From Thermodesulfovibrionales bacterium (lineage in GTDB: Bacteria; Nitrospirota; Thermodesulfovibrionia; Thermodesulfovibrionales; Dissulfurispiraceae), in assembly GCA_020062545.1 (NCBI GenBank), contig JAGUWD010000007.1, forward strand, positions 186,001-250,000: a stretch of DNA of 64,000 nt. Reading direction: 5' to 3'. A program made the translations under genes and the position numbers. The notes under the pieces were generated by a model that saw only the letters and a list, made by a program, of their open reading frames with translations, searched no databases and had not been told where the DNA came from. Below are positions 14,760 to 17,360 of this stretch, in pieces. Numbering within the stretch: the stretch's first letter is position 1; each line of letters begins with the position of its first letter.

Positions 14760-17360
14760 ATGCTGACAGGCATAGACAAATTAATGCAGAGCGGCTGTGA
14801 ACGGGAGAAAAAAGAGAAAATCTGTCGTTCACGGGGTGGAGAGTCATGCGCCTTTGACGGAGCGATGATAGTGCTCCAGCCCATAGCCGATGCTGCACAC
14901 ATTGTCCACGGCCCTATTGCATGCTGCGGAAATTCATGGGAAGGAAGAGGAGCATTGTCTTCGAAAGGCAATCTGCACAGAATGGGCTTCACTACAGATA
15001 TGAGCGAGATGGATATTATATACGGCTCTGAAGACAGGCTGTATAATGCTATTTTACGGACTTATGAATCGGTAAGGCCGAAGGCGATATTCGTATATGC
15101 CACATGCGTAAGCGGTTTGATAGGAGAAGACATGGAGGCGGTTTGTAAAAAAGCAGAGGCAGCAATAGGCATTAGAGTTATTCCTGTAAACGCTCCAGGA
15201 TTTGTCGGCCCTAAAAATCTCGGAAACAGAATAGCAGGAGAGGTTTTGCTCGATTATGTGGTAGGTACAGGCGATCTGCCTGAAGGGGACATTCCCGATT
15301 CCACGGCTTCGCTTCGCTTCGCCAGTAAATCCGGGACAGTCCCCTTAATCAACCTCATTGGCGAATACAATATAGCAGGCGATTTATGGCTTGTTGAGCC
15401 TGTCCTTAAAAAAGCAGGGATAAGGGTTCTTTCGAGGATTACAGGCGATTCAACTTTCGAAGAGATAACATATGCCCACAAAGCAAAGCTGAATGTTGTT
15501 GTGTGCAGCCGAGCTTTGATAAATGTAGCGAAGGAGATGGAAAGGAAATACGGAATCCCGTATGTTGAGGTCTCTTTCTTCGGAAAGACAGAGATGTCAA
15601 AGGCGATGAGGCTAATCGCCTCAAATTTCAAATCTCAAATTTCAAATCCCAAATTTGCGGAGAAGATAGAAGCGATAATTGAGATGGAAGAAAAACAGCT
15701 TGATGAAAAATTAGAGGCTTATCAACATCTCAAAGGCAAAAGGGCTGTTCTTTATACCGGAGGCGTGAAGAGCTGGTCTTTTATTTCAGCGCTTATGGAT
15801 TTGGGTATCGAGATTGTCGCAATAGGAACGAAAAAGAGCACATTTGAAGACGAAGAGAAGATGAAAGAAATATTAGGTGCAGATGCCCCTCTTATTGAGG
15901 ATATTACCCCTAAAAATCTTCTCAGACTTATGAGGGAAAGGAATGCTGATATCCTTGTGGCAGGAGGAAGGAACCAGTATCTTGCAATAAAGGAAGGCTT
16001 CCCGTTTGTTGATGTGAATCAGGAAAGGCATACTGCTTATGCAGGATACGAAGGACTGATAAATTTGGCTGAGCAGATAAGCAACAGCATGAGATTTTAC
16101 GATATTGGCAAAGGGCAAAAGGCAAAGGGTAAGAGGGATGATTTGAGACCATCTGCCTTTCGCCCTTCGCCTTTAGCCATTAATCCTTTGAAGCATTCTC
16201 AGTCCATAGGCGCTGCGATTGCATTTCAGGGGATAGACAGGGCACTGCCCATTATTCACGGAGCACAGGGATGCACGTTCCTCGGAAAGGTGTTGCTGAC
16301 AAAGCATTTCAGGGAGCCTATCGCTTTGGCAAGCACAAAATTATTCACCGAAAATGTGGTGATGGGAAGCGAAGAGAATATAATGAAGACGGTCAATGGA
16401 TTTGTAGAAAAAAACAGGCCTGATGTCATCGGTATTCTCACATCAGGACTCTCTGAAGTGAAAGGCGATGATGTTTCAGGTATCGTAAAGCAGCTTCAGA
16501 CCGAACACCATCAGTGCAATATTCTTAATGTTTCTACACCCGATTATGAAGCTGGACTTGAGACAGGATATGCAAAGGCAGTGGAAGCACTACTGCAGTT
16601 CACGGTTCGCGGTTCACGGTTCACGGAGAGGCAGATTAATGTTCTTGTCGGTTCTCATCTTACTCCTGCTGATTTTACGGAAGTGAGGGAAATAATAGAA
16701 TCGTTTGGTTTAAAGCCCATAATGCTTCCCGATCTTTCTGCGCTCGATGGCAGCAGGCAGGGGTTTTCTGCGCTCGCCCCCGGCGGCACAACAATGGATG
16801 ATATACGGGCAATGGGTTCATCAGGGTTTACCATTGCCATAGGCGCAAGCATGGAGTCTGCCGCAATGATTTTAAAAGAAAGATTCGGTATCGAGTACAG
16901 GGTATTTGAAGGCATATCAGGGCTTAAGGATGCAGATATGTTTATGGAGGCGCTTTCCATGTTGAGCGGAAAACAGGTGCCGGCGAAATACGGGAGACAG
17001 AGAAGGGTTTTGATCGACGGTATGAGGGATGCGCATTTTTATTATGGTGGTAAAAGAATATGTCTTGCTCTGGAGAACGATCTATCTCTTCAGATGTCAA
17101 ACTGGCTTGGTGAGATGGGTACTGCAATTGAAATGGTTGATGTTAATTCTGAAGATTTATTTTCAATAGAGGGAGATTTCGATCTTTTAATATCAAACTC
17201 CCATGCGGAAGATACCGCAAAGAGGCTTGGGGTGCCATTGTATCAGATGGGGTTTCCTGTGTATAAAGTTTTGGGAAACAATCACAGGGTTACTATTGGA
17301 TACAGGGGAACTCTTGGACTTATCAACGATATTGCTAATGTATTGGCAGGTTCTCAATAA
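14760..17360 (+). CDS. nifEN: Fused NifE-NifN FeMo-cofactor scaffold
   Basis: An 866-residue single polypeptide. Residues about 1-445 are NifE ([59 protein letters not shown]); residues about 475-866 are NifN ([45 protein letters not shown]). NifEN is the scaffold on which NifB-co matures to FeMo-co. Fused forms are known but separate genes are usual. The linker (residues about 449-474) is built from two inverted 7-bp tandem arrays. NifE also carries an in-frame 60-bp palindrome (residues 176-195) and a 7-bp array (288-299). NifN carries another array (613-622). The frame stays open throughout, so the protein is probably made despite these insertions. Confidence 0.95.
   Translation: [866 protein letters not shown]
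15285..15344. repeat. In-frame palindromic element E1 inside nifE
   Basis: Sixty bp bounded by GGGGACATTCCC and GGGACAGTCCCC. Its reverse complement aligns with element E2 in mqnC (60773-60844): shared blocks are GGGGACTGTCCC, GATTTAC, then GCGAAG and GAATCGGGA near the far end. It encodes 20 residues between VGTGDLP and LINLIGEYN. Confidence 0.8.
15622..15656. repeat. 7-bp tandem array in nifE
   Basis: Five in-frame units: CAAATTT, CAAATCT, CAAATTT, CAAATCC, CAAATTT. It encodes the stretch [11 protein letters not shown]. The same word family occurs in uvrA and dxr. Confidence 0.85.
16106..16181. repeat. Inverted pair of 7-bp arrays forming the NifE-NifN linker
   Basis: Left array: TGGCAAA, GGGCAAA, AGGCAAA, GGGTAAG (16106-16133). 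Right array: TGCCTTT, CGCCCTT, CGCCTTT, AGCCATT (16154-16181), roughly the reverse complement. The same inverted layout is seen in the intergenic gap between amt and glnK. Confidence 0.75.
16598..16625. repeat. 7-bp tandem array in nifN part
   Basis: Four units: GTTCACG, GTTCGCG, GTTCACG, GTTCACG. In frame, encoding part of [13 protein letters not shown]. Confidence 0.85.

Follow-up and report, generated by a model that had tools for sequence, protein, structure and literature searches.

The window, a stretch of 64,000 nucleotides from a Thermodesulfovibrionales contig, carries two palindromic elements that lie inside genes for unrelated enzymes. The genome to which it belongs (2.62 Mb in 47 contigs) holds the element at five places, namely four full copies, all of which are in frame and in unrelated genes, and one half copy. 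The genes and elements are as follows, with positions of the window or, where a contig is named (C3, C25, C45), of another contig of the same genome:

14760..17360, + strand: fused nifE-nifN gene, 866 aa, Pfam Oxidored_nitro (PF00148), its open reading frame uninterrupted by the insert
15285..15344, − strand: 60-bp palindromic element inside nifE, left end GGGGACTGTCCCGGATTTAC at 15344 and right end at 15285
60027..61136, + strand: mqnC (Pfam: radical SAM, CofH/MqnC C-terminal region)
60773..60844, + strand: 72-bp palindromic element inside mqnC, in frame, translated (E)GTVPDLRTGSSMALGEVVESGLSP
C3:118365-118417: element in a CobB/CbiA-type gene, in frame, between the GATase_3 and CbiA domains
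C25:4732-4791: element in a glycosyltransferase-family gene, in frame
C45:24681: half element (solitary right half), no in-frame open reading frame found around it

The nifE copy (window 15285-15344, GGGGACATTCCCGATTCCACGGCTTCGCTTCGCTTCGCCAGTAAATCCGGGACAGTCCCC) is a 60-bp imperfect palindrome, read on the + strand as 20 residues between VVGTGDLPE and LINLIGEYN. Its reverse complement aligned over the full length with the 60773-60844 element of mqnC, relative to which it is reversed; this confirmed the kinship of the two in-frame palindromes that a sequence-only reading of the window had proposed. The end motif GGGGACNGTCCC, with at most one mismatch, matched seven times in the window, all at the nifE and mqnC copies (0.56 matches expected; no shuffled window gave seven). 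The ends of the nifE copy are the least perfect among the four full copies of the genome, and its single-strand folding relative to shuffles gave z-scores of −2.6 to −2.9, compared with about −4 to −5 for other copies. The fused gene also holds in-frame short tandem repeats, CTCAAATTTCAAAT twice and, in the NifE-NifN linker, GGCAAAGGGCAAAA twice (window 15620-15647 and 16107-16134).

Comparison with orthologues demonstrated that the element is mobile. In the same genus, the NifE orthologues of G001 (91% identical) and G002 lack the insert and have stretches of 22 residues at the site, and the element is likewise absent from the orthologue in G054 and others, while a 72-bp copy, a nested form and a decayed form occupy the site in G024, G028 and G043, respectively. 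The mqnC element is absent from mqnC of G002, G003, G015, G012 and others; across relatives this single site holds no insert (G015), copies of 60, 72 or 90 bp, C6/G6 palindromes or 7-bp tandem repeats. In nifE several loop residues were replaced by the insert rather than cleanly added to, so the insertion appears either not to have been clean originally or to have been edited since. Alignment to the NifE structures 9i0g and 3pdi placed the insert in a variable loop. The NifE model, which is poor in its N-terminal half (five sequences, mean pLDDT 60.6) and was used solely for this placement, also showed it as a low-confidence loop, and in the AlphaFold2 model of MqnC (pTM 0.79) the insert-bearing residues 239-274 lie between a strand and a helix at pLDDT below 50. 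The sequence-only reading had described a mobile palindrome tolerated in frame, as a new surface loop, by essential enzymes. Neither of the outcomes that it had named as evidence against itself occurred: the genome-wide search found further copies, and insert-free close orthologues were found for both NifE and MqnC. Its core reading, a mobile palindrome lying in frame in a loop of functional enzymes, is supported, but the loop is not wholly new, since the sites in NifE, MqnC and QueC are hypervariable to begin with and carry other in-frame repeats in relatives.

Copies were collected from the loci of relatives and by a scan for exact matches in which each species was represented by one genome (at least 118 stretches), giving a family of at least 191 distinct copies of about 50-96 bp. 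The left end GGGGACTGTCCCNGAWTTAC and the right end GTAGAWTCGGGACTGTCCCC are near-constant across copies, the constancy of the left end being partly due to how copies were retrieved, and the element can be written as A-GGGGACTGTCCC(A/G)GAWTTAC ... GTAGAWTCGGGACTGTCCCC-G. The middles vary in sequence and length (commonly 50, 51, 53, 54, 57, 60, 72 and 90 bp for the element, with 60 bp the commonest), and several forms of 90-96 bp enclose a further, C-rich/G-rich palindrome within that middle. A 19-base end pattern was present in 14 of the 60 relatives; the same pattern written backwards gave no match in those 14 and one elsewhere among the 60. Among the matches listed, copies occurred in metagenome-assembled genomes (MAGs) of Nitrospirota, Deltaproteobacteria and Desulfuromonadales, Omnitrophota, Poribacteria, Desantisbacteria and Nitrospinota, as well as in Mu-like phages, and none was in Rickettsia (exact pattern scan); plasmids gave no match to the 60-bp consensus. 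The element is thus present in the lineage to which it had first been assigned, but is not confined to it. The middle differs by lineage, as in the Poribacteria MAG (54 bp with GGGCGCTTTGCGCC) and the Omnitrophota MAG (50 bp with GGACGAAGTC), and this speaks against simple bin contamination. Four IMG/VR contigs bear copies, several of them in frame in genes for Mu-type transposases, the Mu portal protein and the terminase, and the Mu portal and terminase genes of the relative G018 likewise carry the element; it is plausible that Mu-like phages serve as a vehicle between phyla. Decorated transposase, portal and terminase genes of Mu-like phages or prophages were seen at loci L384, L386 and L387 (IMG/VR) and at L094 and L095.

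The hairpin is conserved across the family. Among 40 distinct 60-mers, 98.2% of the full-length hairpin cells were paired, with 15 two-sided changes against a shuffle mean of 2.4; the corresponding values for 22 distinct 50-mers were 97.0% and 13 against 4.8, and slid hairpins used as controls were paired at 26-53%. Compensatory A-T/G-C exchanges were found at columns 23/39 of the 60-mers and 23/29 of the 50-mers, with further compensations at 28/34 (G-C to A-T), 29/33 (C-G to T-A) and 16/36 (T-A to A-T). These paired changes support a single hairpin whose structure itself, beyond its sequence, is maintained.

To what extent copies lie in frame was determined with a codon-score test of open reading frames, which replaced a first test with 120-bp codon windows that was too weak (21% of native sites recovered). 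Among 167 scorable copies, 96 were in frame, 3 looked shifted or lay between two genes and 68 were elsewhere; stricter rules left 86 in frame, and in-silico deletion of one or two bases per element reduced this count to 15 and 7, respectively, which gauges the false-positive rate of the test. The copies without an identified in-frame open reading frame thus number 71-81 of 167. Native sites at these loci scored as coding in 85% of cases, so the copies are somewhat depleted within genes, which is what a removal of insertions that break the frame would lead one to expect. Lengths that are multiples of three were commoner among in-frame copies (62/86 versus 42/81, P=0.01), and the frame GTVPDLR..VVESGLSP was used by 47 of those 62 (P=7 × 10−17 against a null of four equal stop-free frames, an optimistic value as copies are related by descent). 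Copies of the 50-bp class are frequently in frame despite a length that three does not divide, and some sites must therefore have needed compensating changes. In G024, G028, G015, G012 and G054, cobB/cbiA keeps its frame despite a 50-bp copy, which implies compensating changes in the sequence around the copy. Ten further hosts were recognised by Pfam, namely QueC, NAD(P)H-hydrate dehydratase, a heptosyltransferase, an ABC transporter, an FAD oxidoreductase (flavoprotein), the Mu portal and the terminase, together with a mannose-1-phosphate guanylyltransferase type, a phosphomannomutase and a KDO transferase, with the Pfam match running across the insert.

Certain loops hold more than one kind of repeat. 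In queC, G024 has a 60-bp copy and its sister species G028 a copy of opposite orientation at the same loop. At this QueC loop (EVPK..IPVTYVPARNT), in-frame 7-bp tandem or other repeats were observed in many of the Thermodesulfovibrionales examined (L429, which lies on contig C39 of the genome studied here, and L430-L456). A different palindrome of the CCCCCC..GGGGGG type was seen in frame at the MqnC and NifE loops elsewhere (L328, L330, L124, L145, L149), and also nested within the GGGGAC element in G005, G028 and G003. Given these varied repeats, the NifE, MqnC and QueC loops seem generally open to in-frame repeat DNA. We suggest tentatively that they may act as docking sites at which unrelated repeat families (GGGGAC hairpins, C6/G6 palindromes and 7-bp tandem repeats) swap, always in frame, with the GGGGAC hairpin shaped for translation; if so, this would be a general route, partly carried by Mu-like phages, for selfish DNA to rewrite protein surfaces across phyla.

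The flanks of the copies and the transposase genes of their genomes bear on how the element moves. No direct-repeat length of 2-10 bp rose clearly above shuffled pairing at the position of a target duplication. The base at −1 was A in 85% and that at +1 was G in 65-80% of copies, alike inside and outside genes; coding selection as the source of these RA|G flanks was dropped, because the bias is much alike in copies outside identified open reading frames, and RA|G may be part of the element instead of the target. Among 87 Y1 transposase genes from these genomes, 69 lay between inverted repeats at least 11 bp long (8.7 expected); GGGWS occurs in 59 of these and GGGWSAS in 45, in most cases after an A. 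The TIRYT repeat consensus is GGGGWSAS (PMC3733652), and TIRYT-type transposases correspond to TnpA-REP subclass 2.1 (PMC6006769). The genome studied here has an intact 223-aa Y1 transposase (RAYT; L008 1405-2155, C34:33835) bracketed by AGGGACACATCCC inverted repeats, whose ends AGGGACACATCCCATATTT resemble the element end (transposase AGGGACACATCCCATATTTC close to AGGGGACTGTCCCAGATTTAC). A second copy of this gene, on contig C23, is broken. Y1_Tnp was present in all 16 element-bearing genomes examined from the wide scan and in 40 of the 60 order-level relatives; the copy-rich genomes G024, G005 and G054 gave no match, so that, if a Y1 helper is assumed, it was lost there or the copies are relics. 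A Y1 transposase gene with GGGACTGTCCC ends was found in none of 396 Nitrospirota genomes, 16 other genomes and about 100 transposase loci. Two arrangements were sought and rejected: a RAYT gene flanked by the element itself (zero cases among about 100 loci) and an autonomous copy (GGGACWGTCCC followed by an ATGCC start), for which the five Nitrospirota matches adjoined no Y1 gene and the 16 other genomes gave one match.

Taken together, these data make it likely that the insert is a non-autonomous miniature hairpin element that relies for its movement on Y1 transposases (RAYT/TIRYT kind) acting in trans. The element is probably a miniature derivative of Y1 (RAYT/TIRYT) transposons, since its ends match the A-GGGGWSAS inverted repeats that bracket Y1 genes in these genomes. 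The helper would be an IS200-like HUH enzyme and would insert the element as a single strand, as for other Y1 elements, leaving no target duplication. The 60-bp form, a multiple of three with four stop-free frames out of six, would enter a codon (AAG or GAG, for example), possibly at an RA|G target, and add 20 residues without a shift. Copies would survive where they land in a linker between domains or in a disordered loop at the surface, the added peptide presumably being neutral, and frame-breaking copies would be purged. Mobilisation of the TIRYT type is the best supported step, yet unproven.

The same selfish in-frame palindrome might instead be moved by another transposase, by template switching or by recombination between REP-like copies. 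The lack of a cognate Y1 transposase in our searches and the three copy-rich genomes without Y1_Tnp favour such a mechanism, the differing middles at one site in nifE and in mqnC suggest middle exchange, and CGTC-type REPs/RPEs are likewise without a known transposase (PMC3733652); against this, the A-GGGGWS ends are held in common with the Y1-bracketing repeats, target duplications are lacking, the hairpin is conserved and Y1_Tnp accompanies the element in all 16 genomes examined from the wide scan, so that we consider this alternative rather unlikely. That the element is kept for the host gene, its mRNA hairpin or peptide tuning translation, folding or interactions of NifE, MqnC and others, would fit the conserved hairpin, the dominance of one frame and the occupation of the same sites in several genera, but is improbable given that the functions of the hosts are unrelated, that sister species have no element, other repeats or a reversed element, that the loops are hypervariable and of low confidence in the models, and that close to half of the scorable copies lie outside identified in-frame open reading frames. 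A chance palindrome, a native enzyme loop or an assembly artefact found no support and can be given almost no weight, as the same ends recur at at least 191 distinct places across independent assemblies, the backwards-pattern control was near-empty and close orthologues are without the insert.

Selfish DNA that persists within protein-coding genes has hitherto been regarded largely as something peculiar to Rickettsia, apart from scattered REP cases. In the present case a single recognisable family lies in frame in core enzymes of nitrogenase cofactor assembly and of menaquinone, cobalamin, queuosine and lipopolysaccharide pathways, in several phyla and in Mu-like phages. The same loop occurs empty, filled, reverse-filled or with another repeat, and these natural replicates make tolerance, removal and effects on activity directly testable; they also warn that such inserted residues are not to be taken for functional domains.

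In-frame palindromes are established in Rickettsia (review PMC10969869). The sequence-only reading held them to be rare elsewhere; they are less rare than that, since GTAG-REPs and CGTC-REPs/RPEs have been reported inside open reading frames in several genera (PMC3733652) and REPs lie in frame within tnpA-REP genes (PMC6006769). In behaviour, the element resembles the RPEs of Rickettsia (Ogata et al. 2000, 2002), which are small palindromes that keep the frame of many unrelated and seemingly functional genes, with stop-free frames and tolerant loops; RPE-4/6, however, have CGTC tags and no transposase association (PMC3733652), whereas the element described here is bounded by GGGGAC ends, mostly measures 50-60 bp and occurs in several phyla and Mu-like phages. 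MITEs of DDE transposons differ in their fixed-length target site duplication, which the element does not have. With GTAG REPs and REP dimers (REPIN/BIME; intragenic in Opitutus terrae) it shares two inverted half-palindromes and in-frame intragenic copies. A GTAG that faces inwards, as in a tail-tail dimer, is conserved in its right arm and may correspond to the tetranucleotide that stands directly below the stem in GTAG REPs, but is followed by AATC and so lies 4 nt from the GGGAC stem; the element further differs in that its left half has GTAA, its ends pair across the whole length and it was found to flank no RAYT gene among about 100 loci, and GTAG REPs are predominantly intergenic whereas the element is in frame inside open reading frames in 51-57% of scorable copies. 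TIRYT/TIR repeats (Di Nocera et al. 2013; Quentin et al. 2018) have ends of the GGGGWSAS type; reading the right end of the element inwards (GGGGACAG) gives an exact fit to this motif, and its left end (GGGGACTG) departs from it by one position. The genomes studied here are rich in Y1 transposases with ends of this type, and gene-less dispersed TIR families are known, but more than half of the scored element copies lie within genes, not between them, and about 100 Y1 loci together with two pattern searches gave related ends only; the element is therefore not filed as a proven TIRYT member. The sequences GGGGACTGTCCC and GGGACTGTCCC gave only unrelated matches in the open-access literature searched, none of them in a bacterial context, and we file the element as a family unreported in that literature, which combines RPE-like behaviour with TIRYT-like ends.
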